Source: a virus. Taken from it: a stretch of 21,299 nucleotides of DNA. Made by a program: the position numbers and the translations under genes. Where the stretch lies: the IMG/VR virus record IMGVR_UViG_3300033978_000435, positions 1-21,299 of that record. One strand, 5' to 3'. Below the pieces are notes generated by a model that did no database searches, had not been told where the DNA came from, and saw only the letters and a list, made by a program, of their open reading frames with translations. Below are positions 15,771 through 21,299 of the stretch, piece after piece (the first letter of the stretch is position 1; each line of letters begins with the position of its first letter).

Positions 15771-16220
15771 TCACGACTGCCACTCCGCCAGCAGCAGGCG
15801 CGCTCGACCGCCCTCGCCTGCATCGGCCGTCAGCGTCGTGCGCTGATCGACCTGCACGCTCGCTCTGTCGCGGTAGACCTCGGGGCGCAGACCCTTCAAG
15901 CGGAACTGCAACAGCGTGACCTGCGCGGGCGTGGCATCAACCTCGCCTGTCGCGATGGCATCCACGATGCCCTCCAACCGCGTGGCCGTCTCCGCGCTCG
16001 TGGCGCGATGCCTCTCGGCGAAGTCGGGGTGCATGCGCATCCACCGATGCACCTGCGCGTCCCCGACACCTGCGGCCTCACAGGCGGCGCGCCATCCGCC
16101 CGAGCCGACCGTGTCGAGCCACACGGCCATTTGCCGCTCGCGCCTCTCAGCCATCGCGGGCGGCTCCACGCCCTCGGGCAGCAAGTCAAAGTAAAAAGTC
16201 GCAGGAAGTTGCTTTGCCAT
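15771..16220 (-). CDS. terS: Terminase small subunit
   Basis: A 149-aa protein (152 aa if the GTG at 16229 is used). The ATG at 16220 is preferred as the conventional start codon, but neither start has a good ribosome binding site. The N-terminus has MAKQLPATFYFDLLPEG. Residues about 35-75 give a helix-turn-helix (GWRAACEAAGVGDAQVHRW) typical of terS DNA binding. The C-terminus has LQFRLKGLRPEVYRDR, a common terS motif before the portal/terL-binding tail. It would bind the packaging site and load large terminase. It is the first gene of the leftward operon. Confidence 0.8.
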   Translation of the reverse strand: MAKQLPATFYFDLLPEGVEPPAMAERRERQMAVWLDTVGSGGWRAACEAAGVGDAQVHRWMRMHPDFAERHRATSAETATRLEGIVDAIATGEVDATPAQVTLLQFRLKGLRPEVYRDRASVQVDQRTTLTADAGEGGRARLLLAEWQS

Positions 16221-16299
16221 AACACCCACAATCTACGGGACTTGTGGACAAAGTGGAAGAATCGCTCAAGGGAATCTCATCAAAAATCCGATGAACCGT

Positions 16300-16327
16300 T
16301 TGCATCCCCACATTTGTGGTGCATACT
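16300..16327 (+). promoter_or_regulatory. Promoter with CCACATTTGTGG palindrome
   Basis: TTGCAT and CATACT are separated by 16 bp. The spacer holds CCACATTTGTGG, a near-perfect dyad (five-base arms CCACA/TGTGG), so a bound protein would block the promoter. The layout matches those at 19524 and 20421. Confidence 0.6.
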
Positions 16328-16334
16328 GTTGTTT

Positions 16335-16363
16335 GTCGAGAGCAGCACGGTGCTGACCTCGAC
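16335..16363 (+). promoter_or_regulatory. Leader hairpin before the first early gene
   Basis: GTCGAG pairs with CTCGAC (outer 6 bp) and CAGCA with TGCTG (inner 5 bp) around a CGG loop. It ends about 23 nt before the ATG. The inner palindrome CAGCACGGTGCTG recurs at 16773-16785. Confidence 0.65.
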
Positions 16364-16386
16364 CCACTCCCGAAAGGAACCGACAC

Positions 16387-16722
16387 ATGCAGACCTCGCC
16401 CGCTACGACCATCACCATTCGCGACTACGATACCTTGACCCCCGTGAGCCATGTTGTCCCGGTCTTGTACCCGGAGACGGCCAACGCGCTCAAGGTGATG
16501 GTCGCCCACATCGACGCGCAGATCAACCACCTGTGGCACTACGGCAGCCACGGCAGCCATCGCATCGGCGAGGTGCGCGAGATGGTCGCTGGCATCATCG
16601 CGCAGACTCGGCTGATCACCATCCTGACCGGCGACCGCCCGCACAGCGAGCGCGTTGTGTACGCCCTGCGCAGCGCGTGTTTCAAGGCCGAGAAGAGCGC
16701 GCTCGCTCGTCTGCGCAAGTGA
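16387..16722 (+). CDS. Early phage protein of 111 aa, unknown function
   Basis: ATG after the CACTCCCGAAAGGA ribosome binding site at 16365-16378. The product opens MQTSPATTITIRDYDTL, contains VLYPETANALKVMVAHID, and has a helical C-terminal half (GEVREMVAGIIAQTRLITI; RSACFKAEKSALARL). No domain, signal peptide or membrane segment is recognised. It is the first gene to the right of the divergent region and is followed by a strong hairpin, so it is a separate transcriptional or mRNA unit. Charge is close to neutral with several His/Tyr residues. Confidence 0.8.
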   Translation: MQTSPATTITIRDYDTLTPVSHVVPVLYPETANALKVMVAHIDAQINHLWHYGSHGSHRIGEVREMVAGIIAQTRLITILTGDRPHSERVVYALRSACFKAEKSALARLRK

Positions 16723-16732
16723 CCCACAACCT

Positions 16733-16758
16733 CTGCGCCCCCTTGACGGGGGGCGCAG
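16733..16758 (+). terminator. Post-stop hairpin, loop TTGAC
   Basis: CTGCGCCCCC pairs with GGGGGCGCAG (10 bp) with a TTGAC-type loop. No T-run follows, so it may terminate weakly or stabilise the 3' end. A related TTGAC-loop hairpin is at 18191-18208. Confidence 0.7.
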
Positions 16759-16772
16759 GGCTTCCCGACCCC

Positions 16773-16785
16773 CAGCACCGTGCTG
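16773..16785 (+). promoter_or_regulatory. CAGCACCGTGCTG palindrome before the second early gene
   Basis: Same 13-bp near-palindrome as in the first leader hairpin (16343-16355), differing at the centre. It lies about 37 nt before the ATG of the acidic-protein gene. It could be an RNA hairpin or a protein binding site. Confidence 0.5.
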
Positions 16786-16822
16786 CGGCCGGAACCGCCC
16801 GACTCCCGAAAGGAGCCTGACA

Positions 16823-17056
16823 ATGCTGATGACTGCCAAAGACGCGAAGAAATTGTTCAACGACATCGCAAAGCGCGATGGCGAAAAATCGTATGTGCTG
16901 GTTTTCTACGCGGAGGTGGACGACGCGATGTCCACCGCCGCCGACGAACTTGACGGCGGCGAAGGCAACTGCGTTGAGAGCGCGTTGGCGTTGTACCTCA
17001 GTCTTTGCGAGGAAAACATTCCGTCCGAAGAGGAAGACGAATCCAACGATGGCTGA
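16823..17056 (+). CDS. Small acidic protein, copy 1 of a paralogous pair
   Basis: A 77-aa protein. The ATG at 16823 is used because a GAAAGGAGCC site precedes it; the longer frame has no site. It starts MLMTAKDAKKLFNDIAKR, has SYVLVFYAEVDDA and a LDGGEGN turn, and ends with an acidic tail rich in Glu/Asp. It aligns from Met1 through Ile66 with the protein at 18821-19060 (37 of 66 identical by hand, about 56%), both with an acidic C-terminus. Function unknown. A DNA-mimic or protein-binding tail is possible but not shown. It is followed by a TTCG-loop hairpin and then the FII-domain gene. Confidence 0.85.
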   Translation: MLMTAKDAKKLFNDIAKRDGEKSYVLVFYAEVDDAMSTAADELDGGEGNCVESALALYLSLCEENIPSEEEDESNDG

Positions 17057-17069
17057 CGGCTCGCGTGCC

Positions 17070-17095
17070 GTGGGCTCCCCTTCGGGGGAGCCCAC
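17070..17095 (+). terminator. Post-stop hairpin with TTCG tetraloop
   Basis: GTGGGCTCCCC pairs with GGGGAGCCCAC (11 bp) closed by TTCG, among the most stable RNA tetraloops. It starts 14 nt after the stop. No T-run follows, so a processing or 3'-end protection role is as likely as termination. Confidence 0.8.
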
Positions 17096-17142
17096 CCGCC
17101 TGCGCCGTTGCAGGATTCACCCCACTCCCGAAAGGACTGACC

Positions 17143-18177
17143 ATGCCCGCGATCACCAAGTTCATCATCGCCCTCGACCCCGCCGCCCCCTGCTACGCGC
17201 TCTCGTTCGATGTCTCGCCGAGCGACATCTTCCGCAACACCGCAGCGACCCGCGCCGTTGCGACCCCCGACCGCACCAAGGCGCACCAGTTCGACACCTT
17301 CGAAGAAGCGCGCAAGGTCTCAAAGGACATCACGGGCTGGGGCGGCGCGCAGCGCGTGGAAGAGATCGCCGTGCAGGTCGCCGAGCCGCGCGACCTCGAC
17401 GGCTCCGACCTCAACATCGACACCAACCGCATCGAGACGCGCGATGCCGCGACCTTCGCGTGGCACGAGGCGGTCGATGCGGGCAAGGACACCGTGGCAG
17501 AGCGCATCGACCATGTTCTCGCCTCGATGCGCGACCTCGGGTTCGGGGCTGACCGCGTGAACGATTGGACGTGCGCGGCCGACATCATCACCATCGCAGA
17601 CCCGCACGGCAACTGGCTGACCCTGTCGTTCGACCCCCGTCAGGACGGCTTCGACTACCCGGCCTCGGTCGCGGATGCGGAGGCCATCGAGGCGCGTCTC
17701 GATGCCGAGGCGAACCTCGGCGAGGGCGAGGAGTCCGAGCCTGCGGACGCGGCCGACAGCGGCGACGATGCCTGCGACCCGCTCGCGGAGATGTGGCGCG
17801 AGGAGGAGCCGATCTGCGCGGGCTGCGATGGCCTGTTCCCTCTGCGCGAAGGGCAGCACGAGTGCGAGACCTGCGCGGCTGCGCGGTCGATCGTGAACCC
17901 GGTGACTGCGGCCGTGATCGCCGCGACCGGGGAACTGTACGACTACATGGAACTGGCTGAGGCCGAGGCCGAACGCCAGCCGATCCTCGACGAGGATGCC
18001 GTCACCGACCTGCTCACGAACCTGCGCCACGCCGCTGCTGCGGACGGCATCGACTTCGATGAACTGGTCGCCATCAGCGCGCGCCACTTCGCGGCAGAGG
18101 TTGATGCGCAGGCAAAGATGGCGAGCCTGACGGCCAAGATCATCGCCCCCGCGCAGCGCGGCGATGACAACGGCTGA
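17143..18177 (+). CDS. FII-domain protein with central zinc ribbon, unknown function
   Basis: A 344-aa protein starting at the ATG after CACTCCCGAAAGGA (17123-17136). Residues 1-60 hold a small alpha/beta unit (FIIALDPAAP; SPSD; TPDRTKAHQFDTFEEARK) that is also present in the protein at 19125-19505. Residues about 185-215 are acidic and disordered. Cys225, Cys228, Cys241 and Cys244 form a CxxC-CxxC zinc ribbon. The C-terminal 100 residues are mostly helical (LDEDAVTDLLTNLRHAAAA; LTAKIIAPAQRG). A zinc ribbon and acidic linker suggest protein or nucleic-acid binding. I do not recognise a known family. It is followed by two hairpins. Confidence 0.75.
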   Translation: MPAITKFIIALDPAAPCYALSFDVSPSDIFRNTAATRAVATPDRTKAHQFDTFEEARKVSKDITGWGGAQRVEEIAVQVAEPRDLDGSDLNIDTNRIETRDAATFAWHEAVDAGKDTVAERIDHVLASMRDLGFGADRVNDWTCAADIITIADPHGNWLTLSFDPRQDGFDYPASVADAEAIEARLDAEANLGEGEESEPADAADSGDDACDPLAEMWREEEPICAGCDGLFPLREGQHECETCAAARSIVNPVTAAVIAATGELYDYMELAEAEAERQPILDEDAVTDLLTNLRHAAAADGIDFDELVAISARHFAAEVDAQAKMASLTAKIIAPAQRGDDNG

Positions 18178-18190
18178 CCCCATCCCGCTC

Positions 18191-18208
18191 CGCGCCTTGA
18201 CGGGCGCG
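18191..18208 (+). terminator. Post-stop hairpin, loop TTGAC
   Basis: CGCGCC pairs with GGCGCG around a TTGACG loop. The same loop type is at 16733-16758. Confidence 0.55.
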
Positions 18209-18219
18209 CGGCGGCTTCG

Positions 18220-18235
18220 CCCCCCGTGCGGGGGG
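18220..18235 (+). terminator. Second hairpin in the same gap
   Basis: CCCCCC pairs with GGGGGG around GTGC. It follows the TTGAC hairpin by 11 nt and sits just before the next ribosome binding site. G-run slippage or hairpin pausing is possible. Confidence 0.6.
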
Positions 18236-18244
18236 TTCACAACC

Positions 18245-18263
18245 CAGTTCACGAAAGGAACTG
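18245..18263 (+). promoter_or_regulatory. Ribosome binding site inside a hairpin
   Basis: CAGTTC pairs with GAACTG (6 bp) with the 7-nt loop ACGAAAG; GAAAGGA spans loop and stem. ATG starts 3 nt later. One of four such covarying structures (with 18800, 19566, 20491). Confidence 0.65.
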
Positions 18264-18266
18264 ACA

Positions 18267-18680
18267 ATGTCCCTAAATGTCGATGCATCGCGAGTCAAGA
18301 ACGCCGAAACCGTCTGCTTCCGTGGAGAGGGTGACAAGCGCGAGTGGAACCCGCTCACGACCCTGATCGCCTTCACGACGATGTCGGTTGACATCGGCGA
18401 GATCACCGCCGAGAACGCCGAGGAGTTCTACTGCCGCGCCGCCCTGATCAACGACATCTACGCGAGCGCGTCGAGCCTCGCGCCGACCGACATCACCATC
18501 GCCGACATCAAGGCGCACATCGGTCTCCGCACGAATGTCGCGACCCTGACCCGGGCGAAGTGGCTCGCGAAGGTGTCCAAGGTGGTCATCCCGAACCGCC
18601 TGCGCGCGTACAAGTACCGGCTCGACCGCGCCGAGCAGGCCAATATCACCAGCGCCGCCGAGCAGCCCGCAACCGCCTGA
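18267..18680 (+). CDS. Early phage protein of 137 aa, unknown function
   Basis: ATG follows the hairpin ribosome binding site at 18245-18263. The product begins MSLNVDASRVKNAETVCF, has a Thr/Ile-rich section (NPLTTLIAFTTMSVDIGEI), an acidic helix with ENAEEFYCRAALINDIYA, and a basic helical end (RAKWLAKVSKVVIPNRLRA). The basic second half could bind nucleic acid, but no motif is clear. There is no transmembrane segment. It lies between the two copies of the acidic/FII gene pair and is followed by a GGGGCG hairpin. Confidence 0.8.
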   Translation: MSLNVDASRVKNAETVCFRGEGDKREWNPLTTLIAFTTMSVDIGEITAENAEEFYCRAALINDIYASASSLAPTDITIADIKAHIGLRTNVATLTRAKWLAKVSKVVIPNRLRAYKYRLDRAEQANITSAAEQPATA

Positions 18681-18695
18681 CTTCCTTTCGTGGCG

Positions 18696-18716
18696 TGGGG
18701 CGATGCGACCGCCCCA
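18696..18716 (+). terminator. Post-stop hairpin, ATGCGAC loop
   Basis: TGGGGCG pairs with CGCCCCA around ATGCGAC. The 19-mer GGGGCGATGCGACCGCCCC is repeated exactly at 19077-19095. Confidence 0.75.
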
Positions 18717-18737
18717 TAACACGAACTTGCATAATCT

Positions 18738-18778
18738 CACCACATTTGTGTTGACTTCCTAAGACTGACCGCTATTCT
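18738..18778 (+). promoter_or_regulatory. Promoter with nearby CACATTTGTG dyad
   Basis: TTGACT (18751-18756) and TATTCT (18773-18778) are 16 bp apart, a good sigma70-like pair. CACATTTGTG (18741-18750) lies directly upstream, within CACCACATTTGTGTTG. It shares the CCACA...TGTG core seen at 16308. It drives the second acidic-protein gene. Confidence 0.6.
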
Positions 18779-18799
18779 TCCTTCGTGTGCATCAACCCC

Positions 18800-18816
18800 G
18801 GTTCAAGAAAGGAACC
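18800..18816 (+). promoter_or_regulatory. Ribosome binding site inside a hairpin
   Basis: GGTTC pairs with GAACC around the 7-nt loop AAGAAAG. GAAAGGA spans loop and stem. ATG starts 4 nt after the stem. Confidence 0.65.
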
Positions 18817-18820
18817 TGCC

Positions 18821-19060
18821 ATGCTAATGACCGCTCAACGCGCTTCCAAAATGTTCGCCGATGTTGCCGCGCGCAACGGCAAAAATTCCTACGTCGTTGT
18901 GTTCTTCGCTGAGATGAGTGACGCTCAGTCGGATGCCTCCGCCGCGCTTGATGGCGGAGAAGGTGACGCGGTCGAGCGCGCGATCGGGGAGTACATCGAA
19001 CTCTGCGACGAGCAGATTGGCGACGATGACGAGAACGGCGACGATGACGAGAACGACTGA
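18821..19060 (+). CDS. Small acidic protein, copy 2 of a paralogous pair
   Basis: A 79-aa protein. It starts at the ATG following the hairpin ribosome binding site. MLMTAQRASKMFADVAAR, SYVVVFFAEMSDA and LDGGEGD match the protein at 16823-17056 position for position, with about 56% identity. The C-terminal 15 residues are nearly all Asp, Glu, Asn and Gly and are more acidic than in copy 1. Function is unknown. Its own promoter (18751-18778) and its own hairpin (19077-19095) make it a self-contained unit. Conserved SYV-VF-AE and LDGGEG suggest a small alpha/beta fold. Confidence 0.85.
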   Translation: MLMTAQRASKMFADVAARNGKNSYVVVFFAEMSDAQSDASAALDGGEGDAVERAIGEYIELCDEQIGDDDENGDDDEND

Positions 19061-19076
19061 CCCGTGACCGATCGAC

Positions 19077-19095
19077 GGGGCGATGCGACCGCCCC
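19077..19095 (+). terminator. Post-stop hairpin, ATGCGAC loop (repeat copy)
   Basis: Exact 19-bp copy of GGGGCGATGCGACCGCCCC seen at 18697-18715. Stem GGGGCG/CGCCCC, loop ATGCGAC. Confidence 0.75.
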
Positions 19096-19124
19096 CGCTC
19101 CAACCCCCAAACGGAACCCGACCC

Positions 19125-19505
19125 ATGCCATTCATCATCGAACTCTGCCCCCAAACCTCATCCGACCCCGCCCTCGCGCGACTGTTCTTTCGCGCGGTAG
19201 CAAATCCAAGCGACCCGACCGACTACTCGGTGACGAGCAACCGCGACCGAGCGACCGAGTTTGCCGACCTCGACTCGGCGCGCGCCGCGCTTCCCCGAAG
19301 TTACCCGCAGTCCGTGATTCTCGCGGTCAACGACCCGGAGTCGGGATCGGCCGAGACCACGCGCCGCGCTCTGCTGGGCTTTCCAAGCGAGGCCAAGATC
19401 GTCGCGCTGACCAACGCGCTGCGCGCCGCAGGCGCGACCCTGCACCGTGACGGTGACGGCGTGAAGGTTGCCCTTGCGGACGGCTCGACCGTTTCCGTTC
19501 TTTGA
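19125..19505 (+). CDS. FII-domain small protein, short paralog of the 344-aa protein
   Basis: A 126-aa protein. ATG at 19125; the ribosome binding site is weak (ACGGAACC) and lacks the GAAAGGA form. It begins MPFIIELCPQTSSDPALAR and has NPSD, SVTSNRDRATEFADLDSAR. These match FIIALDP, SPSD and TPDRTKAHQFDTFEEAR of the 17143-18177 protein, so the first 60 residues are probably one domain in both. The rest has a helix with GFPSEAKIVALTNALRAAG and ends LADGSTVSVL. It lacks the zinc ribbon and acidic linker. Homology is by eye, moderate. Confidence 0.75.
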   Translation: MPFIIELCPQTSSDPALARLFFRAVANPSDPTDYSVTSNRDRATEFADLDSARAALPRSYPQSVILAVNDPESGSAETTRRALLGFPSEAKIVALTNALRAAGATLHRDGDGVKVALADGSTVSVL

Positions 19506-19523
19506 GAATCTCGCACATTCGAC

Positions 19524-19551
19524 TTGCACACCACAATACTGGTGACATACT
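19524..19551 (+). promoter_or_regulatory. Promoter with ACCACAATACTGGT dyad in the spacer
   Basis: TTGCAC and CATACT with a 16-bp spacer that holds ACCACAATACTGGT (arms ACCA/TGGT). It starts 19 bp after the previous stop and is nearly the same as 20421-20448 over more than 40 bp. Confidence 0.65.
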
Positions 19552-19565
19552 CTCTGCTACACCCC

Positions 19566-19580
19566 GCTCTTGAAAGGAGC
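19566..19580 (+). promoter_or_regulatory. Ribosome binding site inside a hairpin
   Basis: GCTC pairs with GAGC around TTGAAAG. The stem changes from GGTTC/GAACC to GCTC/GAGC while keeping pairing. It decides the GTG start at 19587 over the ATG at 19524, which lies in the promoter. Confidence 0.65.
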
Positions 19581-19586
19581 CTGACC

Positions 19587-20078
19587 GTGAAGGACATCGA
19601 AACGACCAGCCTGTTCGCCGCCTCCGCCCTCTTCGAATCCGCGCTGCGCGAGCAAGCCCGCTGCGGAGCCAAGTGGACTACCTCGACCGAGGCGCACACC
19701 GCCCTGTCCGCGATCGAGCAGATCACCGGCATCGAGTACCCGATCCTGATCGTCGCGCTCAACGAGGCGCTCGCCGTCAGCCTGCTGCACCAGTTCAAGG
19801 ACTGCTCGCGCTTTCTTGGATGCCATGCCGAGGCAGGCGAACCGCGCGTCGAACACACCATCCACACCCTCGTGGACAAGTACCTGAGCAGGCGGTTCAT
19901 GGGAACCAAGCAGGCTCCCGGCTTCCACTCGTGGGCGCGCCAGCGGCTGGAGTCGGGCAGTTTCACGCTCGCGGGCTACACCCCGCAGTTCGTCGCCACC
20001 TTCCACCGGATTCTCGACGAGCGCGATCCGCCCGCCGAGGTCATCACGCTCGTGCCGGTGAACGGAGGTGGCGCGTGA
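19587..20078 (+). CDS. Early phage protein of 163 aa, unknown function
   Basis: The GTG at 19587 is chosen because the hairpin ribosome binding site is just upstream; an in-frame ATG at 19524 is in the -35 element. The product starts VKDIETTSLFAASALFESA and is largely helical (TALSAIEQITGIEYPILIV; LNEALAVSLLHQFKDCSRF). Its second half has KYLSRRFMGTKQAPGFHSW and LDERDPPAEVITLVPVNG. There are three Cys but no zinc pattern. No family recognised. It starts a three-gene run with overlapping stops and starts. Confidence 0.75.
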   Translation: MKDIETTSLFAASALFESALREQARCGAKWTTSTEAHTALSAIEQITGIEYPILIVALNEALAVSLLHQFKDCSRFLGCHAEAGEPRVEHTIHTLVDKYLSRRFMGTKQAPGFHSWARQRLESGSFTLAGYTPQFVATFHRILDERDPPAEVITLVPVNGGGA

Positions 20079-20308
20079 CCCCGCGCGTGATCGCCTACGC
20101 CTTCGATGCCGACGTGCATTGCCCGGCCTGCACGCGCGCCGCGCACGATGACGGCAGGCTGACCCTCGCGGGTCGGCCGATCATCGACCGGAACGGCCTA
20201 CCCGAATCCTTGAAGGATCGGGAGGGCAACTGGGTGTCCGCCCTCTTCTCGTTCGACGAACTTCCGCCTATCCGCTGCGCCGTGTGCGCACAGGAGATCA
20301 ACCCATGA
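20075..20308 (+). CDS. Small zinc-ribbon protein
   Basis: A 77-aa protein starting at a GTG in a GTGA overlap with the previous stop, with GGAGGTG 5 nt upstream. It begins VTPRVIAYAFDADVHCPAC. Cys16, Cys19, Cys68 and Cys71 make two CxxC knuckles that would bind zinc. The middle has DREGNWVSALFSFDELPP. Small proteins with VIAYxxDADxHCPxC at the start and a CxxC at the end are common in phages and plasmids, often near DUF932 genes, as here. Role unknown. Confidence 0.8.
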   Translation: MTPRVIAYAFDADVHCPACTRAAHDDGRLTLAGRPIIDRNGLPESLKDREGNWVSALFSFDELPPIRCAVCAQEINP

Positions 20309-20403
20309 ACCGCGAAGAACCGACTACCATCGAACTGATCTGCGGCACGCTGACCGCCGTCGCGCTTGTTGCGATCCTTTGGACGTTCGCAGCAATTTTC
20401 TGA
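20305..20403 (+). CDS. Very small membrane protein of 32 aa
   Basis: The ATG overlaps the previous stop (ATGA) and AGGAG lies 8 nt upstream. The product opens MNREEPTTIELICG and then runs as one hydrophobic helix (LTAVALVAILWTFAAIF) to the end. This gives one transmembrane segment and a short polar N-terminus. It is below common length cut-offs but has good translation signals. It may sit with the two genes upstream in one transcript. Function unknown. Confidence 0.65.
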   Translation: MNREEPTTIELICGTLTAVALVAILWTFAAIF

Positions 20404-20420
20404 AATCTCTCCAATTCGAC

Positions 20421-20448
20421 TTGCCTACCACAATACTGGTGCTATCTT
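20421..20448 (+). promoter_or_regulatory. Promoter with ACCACAATACTGGT dyad
   Basis: TTGCCT, 16-bp spacer, TATCTT. The spacer holds ACCACAATACTGGTG, also at 19530-19544, and homology covers upstream ATTCGACTTGC too. It drives the DUF932 gene; the leader is about 60 nt. Confidence 0.65.
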
Positions 20449-20490
20449 TCCCCTGTCGCCCGACGCAACTCCGCCGAAGGGACACCCCCC

Positions 20491-20507
20491 GGTTCACGAA
20501 AGGAACC
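20491..20507 (+). promoter_or_regulatory. Ribosome binding site inside a hairpin
   Basis: GGTTC pairs with GAACC around ACGAAAG. Same loop and same stem as the others or nearly so. ATG of the DUF932 gene starts 6 nt after the stem. Confidence 0.65.
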
Positions 20508-20513
20508 CTGACA

Positions 20514-21299
20514 ATGCACGGCATTCACTCCAACGACTCGCTGATCCTCGCTCGCACCTCCGCATGGCACGGCCTCGGCCGCGTCCTGCCCGACACCGTG
20601 ACCCCGGCCGAGGCGCTTTCTACCGGCGGACTTTCGTGGACGGTCGAGGAGAGCGCCTCGCTGACCGCCTGCTTCGTCGGCAATGACGGCACGGCTGAGC
20701 GGGCGGTGGTCGAGACCCACAAGACCCTGCGCCGCAGCGATGACCGCTCGATCCTCTCGACGGTCGGCTCGGACTACAGCGTGTTACAGAACGCCACGCT
20801 CGCCGACATCGCCACGAGCCTCGGCTCGGAGGGCAAGGCGCGCGTCGAGAGCGCAGGCTCGCTGTTCGGAGGGCGCAGGGTATTCTTCCTGCTGCACGGC
20901 GACACCCTCGACATCGGCGGCAAGGGCGACATCGTGCAGCAGTTCATCCTGCTCGCGAACGCGCACGATGGCACGATGTCGGCCACGGTGCTGCCGACCT
21001 CGATCCGCGTAGTCTGCAACAACACGCTGACAATGGCGCTCGGCGCGGCGAAGACCGCGTACCGTTGGCGGCACACGTCCGGCCTGTCGCTGCGCATCGA
21101 GGACATCAAGTCGGCGCTCGCGACCTACCGCGATGCCGCGAAGTCGGACGCGGAGGCGATGAACGCGCTCGCCGCGAAGCCGCTGACCCGCGACGAGATT
21201 CAGAGCCTGTGGGTCGATGTTCTCGTCGCGCTCGACGGCAAGATCGAGGCCAACCCCCGCACCGAGCAAGAGGCGCGCCGCAAGGCCAAGGCCGTCGAT
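20514..21299 (+). CDS. DUF932 phage/plasmid protein (3' end beyond the window)
   Basis: 262 codons are visible and the frame is open to the window edge. It begins MHGIHSNDSLILARTSAWH with GLGRVLPDTVTPAEAL, then GLSWTVEESASL, SDYSVLQNATLADIA, GGRRVFFLLHGDTLDI, and VQQFILLANAHDGTMSATV with LPTSIRVVCNNTLTMAL. These are the core features of DUF932 (TIGR03299-type) proteins of phages and plasmids. The family is widespread, and its role is not settled; a link with recombination or DNA metabolism is often suggested. It has its own promoter and hairpin ribosome binding site. Confidence 0.9.
   Translation, partial: MHGIHSNDSLILARTSAWHGLGRVLPDTVTPAEALSTGGLSWTVEESASLTACFVGNDGTAERAVVETHKTLRRSDDRSILSTVGSDYSVLQNATLADIATSLGSEGKARVESAGSLFGGRRVFFLLHGDTLDIGGKGDIVQQFILLANAHDGTMSATVLPTSIRVVCNNTLTMALGAAKTAYRWRHTSGLSLRIEDIKSALATYRDAAKSDAEAMNALAAKPLTRDEIQSLWVDVLVALDGKIEANPRTEQEARRKAKAVD

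Follow-up and report, generated by a model that had tools for sequence, protein, structure and literature searches.

The early arm and its leaders

The window analysed here is a whole virus record of 21,299 bases. As far as about 16.2 kb the genes are structural (tail, head, portal, terminase) and point leftward; the early genes run rightward from 16387, and only the last of them has a Pfam match, to DUF932. The window has 11 copies of the heptamer GAAAGGA where 2.2 would be expected (0 of 100 shuffles), and the heptamer precedes seven early genes, all seven where a first-pass annotation of the sequence had placed them; it is absent before the early genes at 19125, 20075 and 20305. The gap between GAAAGGA and the start codon had been given as 7-12 nt and measures 6-9 nt. 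Exact hairpins are present at the four leaders for which stems had been described, each enclosing a 7-nt loop of the form NNGAAAG. The other three had been credited with only 2-3 pairs: those at 16372 (-1.5 kcal/mol) and 17130 (-3.1 kcal/mol) are indeed weak, but the one at 16808 forms 4 bp with -7.1 kcal/mol. The seven leaders are:

16368..16378, plus strand: weak second-class leader TCC-CGAAA-GGA, before the gene at 16387; -1.5 kcal/mol
16803..16815, plus strand: second-class leader CTCC-CGAAA-GGAG, with 4 bp around a 5-nt loop, preceding the gene at 16823; -7.1 kcal/mol
17126..17136, plus strand: weak second-class leader TCC-CGAAA-GGA, before the gene at 17143, with outer CA/TG pairs across a C-C mismatch; -3.1 kcal/mol
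18245..18263, plus strand: Shine-Dalgarno hairpin CAGTTC-ACGAAAG-GAACTG, before the gene at 18267; -7.4 kcal/mol
18800..18816, plus strand: Shine-Dalgarno hairpin GGTTC-AAGAAAG-GAACC, before the gene at 18821; -6.9 kcal/mol
19566..19580, plus strand: Shine-Dalgarno hairpin GCTC-TTGAAAG-GAGC, before the GTG-start gene at 19587; -7.1 kcal/mol
20491..20507, plus strand: Shine-Dalgarno hairpin GGTTC-ACGAAAG-GAACC, before the DUF932 gene at 20514; -6.6 kcal/mol

In this arrangement, arms of 3-6 bp flank a loop N[C/U]GAAAG, five letters of which begin the Shine-Dalgarno sequence GAAAGGA; the letters that follow open the 3' arm, and the start codon lies outside the hairpin. Across the window and its relatives, AC, TC or TT before GAAAG usually goes with a 4-6 bp stem and a 7-nt loop, while CC in that place (25 leaders) goes with pairing shifted to TCC[CGAAA]GGA, 3-4 bp. 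The weaker CTCC[CGAAA]GGAG form tends to sit near the start of the early arm. The paralogous early genes 16823-17056 and 18821-19060, which are 51% identical, differ in their leaders: the first has a weaker one of the second class, the other a strong hairpin with a 7-nt loop.

The loop letters themselves have a simple explanation, since GAAAGGA (or GAAAGGAG) is the full-length complement of a 16S tail ending in ...CCUCCUUUC; such tails are common. The early caution that loop conservation might merely reflect the Shine-Dalgarno core was thus well placed: GAAAGGA is also conserved at genes that have no hairpin. No Rfam covariance model matched the region 15800-21299 at E-values up to 1.

Many hairpin genes also have a promoter-like TTGnnn...CATACT/TATCTT element about 40-75 nt upstream, with a CCACA-TTT-GTGG inverted repeat inside or just before it. 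The candidates in the window, matched partly by eye, are:

16300..16327, plus strand: promoter-like TTGCAT-CCCCACATTTGTGGTG-CATACT, which contains an inverted repeat, precedes the first leader and is conserved in relatives
18739..18778, plus strand: CCACATTTGTG and after it TTGACT-N16-TATTCT, ahead of the 18800 hairpin
19524..19551, plus strand: promoter-like TTGCAC-ACCACAATACTGGTGA-CATACT; a transcript made from it is predicted to start shortly ahead of the 19566 hairpin
20421..20448, plus strand: promoter-like TTGCCT-ACCACAATACTGGTGC-TATCTT, upstream of the 20491 hairpin and 87% identical to the 19524 copy

Similar elements carrying CCACA-TTT-GTGG (or ACCACAATACTGGT) stand before early genes in five related contigs (L003, L004, L137, L138, L269), and these inverted-repeat elements are likely to be the operator-promoter of an early regulon. 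Inspection by eye showed no tendency for strong stems to go with a nearby promoter. Two further repeats occur in the early arm. A palindrome, CAGCAC[G/C]GTGCTG, lies at 16344-16356 and 16775-16787, upstream of the first two early leaders. A hairpin-capable intergenic repeat, GGGGCGATGCGACCGCCCC, is found at 18690-18720 and 19075-19100 and recurs between early genes of relatives (on the minus strand at L003 7698, L004 4231 and L005 9037); it may perhaps be a terminator or processing site.

Relatives and covariation of the arms

Relatives were gathered by protein homology: the DUF932 protein led to L003, L004 and L005, a DUF932 profile added L136-L143, and a terminase profile added L264-L342. 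Among isolated phages there was no relative at the DNA level, all DUF932 and terminase matches being below 60% identity, and a terminase scan of bacterial genomes, made in search of a host, gave none either.

Hairpin leaders stand before many early genes of one clade, and only before genes of the early arm. The phages that have them share 69-91% terminase identity with the window (most 73-91%; L100, 69%), and no hairpin leader occurs in relatives whose terminases are 61% identical or less. L141 and L278, at about 70% identity, are without stems. In L278, GAAAGGAACTGACCATG is retained and the complementary 5' arm is missing; stems can thus come and go while the Shine-Dalgarno sequence stays the same, and they are not essential for initiation. 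The early protein family of window positions 17143-18177 is mosaic, with homologs in the hairpin phages, often in 2-3 copies per phage; some members have a zinc-ribbon-like CxxC pair, and the family is present in 10-11 of 11 hairpin phages compared with 0-1 of 12 phages without hairpins.

The first-pass annotation had proposed that the stem letters change while pairing is kept, and that independent variation of the arms in homologous leaders would count against RNA structure. The arms do not vary independently: they covary across leaders, including orthologous leaders of related phages. By permutation, which treats leaders as exchangeable and does not fully model shared ancestry, the covariation score of 82 distinct leaders is 0.253, against 0.104±0.014 after shuffling (0 of 500) and 0.05-0.10 in slid controls, so that pairing is specific to the register of the 7-nt loop. 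In 70 distinct leaders from nine loci picked by protein homology only, 31 stems of at least 4 bp are found; shuffling the 3' arms among the leaders of one phage gives 16.7±2.5, and shuffling them across all leaders gives 8.4±2.3 (0 of 5000 in both cases). Collapsing repeats to 36 distinct arm combinations leaves seven that are fully paired, with seven distinct stems, against 1.35 expected (p=1e-4). At pair 3 of the main class (54 leaders, those without CC before GAAAG) there are 25 T-A, nine G-C, seven C-G and five A-T pairs, and eight mismatches.

The DUF932 gene illustrates this in a single set of orthologs, whose proteins are 56-82% identical. Its leaders carry GGTTC/GAACC (window, L137), GTC/GAC (L003, L004, L138), TGTC/GACA (L005), GCTC/GAGC (L136) and TACC/GGTA (L142). 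All eight have at least three pairs, and each of the four Watson-Crick types appears at pair 3. Another gene of the same phages provides a natural negative control, keeping its GAAAGGA leader without a hairpin in five genomes, and among 130 GAAAGG leaders from unrelated viral contigs only seven have such a stem, three of them in one contig (L075). With relatives added, the leader pattern is far above chance, and the covarying stems are strong evidence for a phage "start box" acting as RNA structure.

Possible roles of the hairpin

What might such a structure do? Our preferred reading, which we hold to be somewhat probable, is that the early genes of one phage clade have a cis-acting RNA hairpin built into the region where translation starts, and that it serves to display the Shine-Dalgarno sequence. 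In predicted folds of 42 strong leaders in 90-nt context, the 5' arm is paired with probability 0.91; GAAAG is unpaired at 0.74, compared with 0.57 when the arm is shuffled (p=9e-10), and the next three Shine-Dalgarno bases are unpaired at only 0.08, compared with 0.43. These probabilities suggest that with the stem in place the first half of the Shine-Dalgarno sequence is exposed and the second half-closed. The 16S tail could then nucleate on the loop, a docking site already formed and accessible at all times, and the weak stem (-3 to -7 kcal/mol) would melt while the 30S subunit extends the pairing. Early genes with promoters of their own would each be insulated from adjacent RNA, with the initiation rate set by the hairpin, and the stem letters would be unconstrained provided that pairing holds.

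The main rival, which we regard as rather unlikely, is a translational operator: a phage or host RNA-binding protein would read the hairpin and switch the whole early set together. One structure in many copies, with a near-invariant loop, in a single regulon and in company with a common promoter/inverted-repeat element, speaks for this model. Stems become stronger farther along the early arm (within-phage permutation, p=0.001, uncorrected for shared ancestry), which also suits it. So do details of the loop: in 41 of the 42 hairpins with stems of 4 bp or longer its second base is C or U and can therefore pair with the closing G, which would make C-GAAA-G a GNRA loop carrying a 1-nt bulge. One variant loop, TTGGAAG, retains GNRA. 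A GNRA tetraloop is compatible with the loop and not needed to explain it. Against the operator, the Shine-Dalgarno sequence already accounts for the loop letters, and GAAAGGA is conserved without hairpins. Stem length and the weak class both vary widely. No regulator was found: a multi-copy early protein family tracks the hairpin phages but is also present in L278, which has no hairpins. Nothing found here directly bears out the earlier suggestion that a factor opens or closes the site and controls the genes jointly: neither a ligand nor a protein that binds the hairpin nor an alternative fold came to light. Between a protein-bound operator and insulated, tuned ribosome docking, we infer the latter.

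A quite improbable alternative is that the hairpin stabilises mRNA, blocking 5'-end-dependent decay near the 5' end of short early transcripts and holding the Shine-Dalgarno sequence as a by-product. The positions of the promoter-like elements agree with this, some hairpins lying no more than about 10-15 nt from the predicted transcript start; hairpins also precede genes with no nearby promoter (18245), however, and stability would not require a strict loop register on the Shine-Dalgarno sequence. Less probable again is a DNA-level inverted repeat, either a regulator site or a cruciform, that contains the Shine-Dalgarno sequence by coincidence. Pairs are almost all Watson-Crick and G-U pairs nearly absent, which would suit a DNA repeat, and the same phages use another DNA palindrome as a likely operator; yet the arm letters are not conserved as in a protein site, the loop is asymmetric, and the hairpins occur in a single orientation at a fixed distance upstream of start codons. 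Least probable, and already disfavoured, is a conserved ribosome-binding box duplicated among genes with pairing due to chance or inheritance: conservation of GAAAGGA and a CTGACC spacer without hairpins, and the short stems of the CTCCCGAAAGGA class, would fit it, but the excess of fully paired arm combinations, the several different paired stems in orthologous leaders and the rarity of stems at GAAAGG leaders of other phages would not.

Parallels in other phages

The displayed Shine-Dalgarno sequence resembles several known elements in part. CsrA/RsmA sites present A-N-GGA in a hairpin loop over the Shine-Dalgarno sequence; they are likewise short hairpins with free stem letters, but in all class-1 hairpins here GGA straddles loop and stem (G | GA), and the leaders were not assigned to that type. 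In the MS2-type operator, the coat protein binds a hairpin that contains the start codon. It too is a short bulged hairpin near a phage ribosome-binding site, and differs in that the start codons of the window are outside the hairpin and that no candidate binder is established. Inhibitory start-region structures of T4 genes e, soc, 49 and I-TevI bury the Shine-Dalgarno sequence and/or the start codon of single genes (PMC3014915). These are also RNA structures at phage translation starts; here, in contrast, the loop keeps GAAAG of the Shine-Dalgarno sequence free, and many genes are involved.

The best parallel is with the start-associated sequences (SAS) of cluster K mycobacteriophages. These are repeated elements 3-7 bp before start codons, almost only of non-structural genes, in one orientation and mostly at ATG (PMC3203893, PMC11373665), and the window leaders likewise lie a few bp before non-structural start codons in a single orientation. 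In both, the Shine-Dalgarno sequence falls within a 7-nt centre between complementary arms (GGG-ATAGGAG-CCC in SAS). About half of SAS are preceded by a promoter-like inverted repeat (ESAS), and the window has such a subset, with an inverted repeat of different letters overlapping the promoter match. The 13-bp SAS consensus, GGGATAGGAGCCC, is not found in the window leaders at up to two mismatches (e.g., GTTC-ACGAAAG-GAAC), so they were not filed as SAS; the loop letters differ, and no protein homology is shown.

SAS were called non-palindromic in 2011, with no hairpin proposed (PMC3203893), and their role was called ill-defined in 2024 (PMC11373665). Unlike those of the window, their arms are nearly fixed: GGG/CCC in 102 of 126 leader copies from seven cluster K genomes. 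Some variants are still paired, including TAC/GTA and CGG/CCG before annotated starts in MacnCheese (L576 3517, 1020) and Pixie (L580), and CAG/CTG and GCC/GGC in Aminay, where the starts are less certain. The excess of paired variants (p=0.04) is a suggestive hint that SAS arms may pair. A doubtful idea is that unrelated phage groups independently evolved a set of early genes whose Shine-Dalgarno sequence sits in a 7-nt hairpin loop, with a shared factor or ribosome state reading the loops and controlling the genes jointly, and that SAS are the same device, overlooked since their arms rarely vary.

The design, in an uncultured phage group, resembles SAS and has covarying stem letters around a Shine-Dalgarno loop; a literature search for a described early regulon with the Shine-Dalgarno sequence in a loop found none. 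The SAS of cluster K phages, whose hosts are culturable, become a directly testable hairpin hypothesis. If the stem does tune or insulate initiation, it would be a compact natural design for predictable ribosome-binding sites.

Hairpins as a general phage habit were considered and are not established. Outside the family, GTTC..GAAC stands before a start codon in 43 of 97 virus matches, compared with 13 of 100 for CTTG..GAAC (p=1e-6) and 25 of 79 for GTTC..GACA, a control that keeps the 5' arm and loses the pairing (p=0.09); in bacterial genomes the figure is 27 of 119. An untargeted hairpin scan was too noisy. In L075, an unrelated phage with a GC content of 0.49, a palindrome, TCTAGGATCCTAGA, lies directly upstream of several GAAAGG leaders between about 6180 and 10820, some of them with a hairpin, in an ESAS-like layout.
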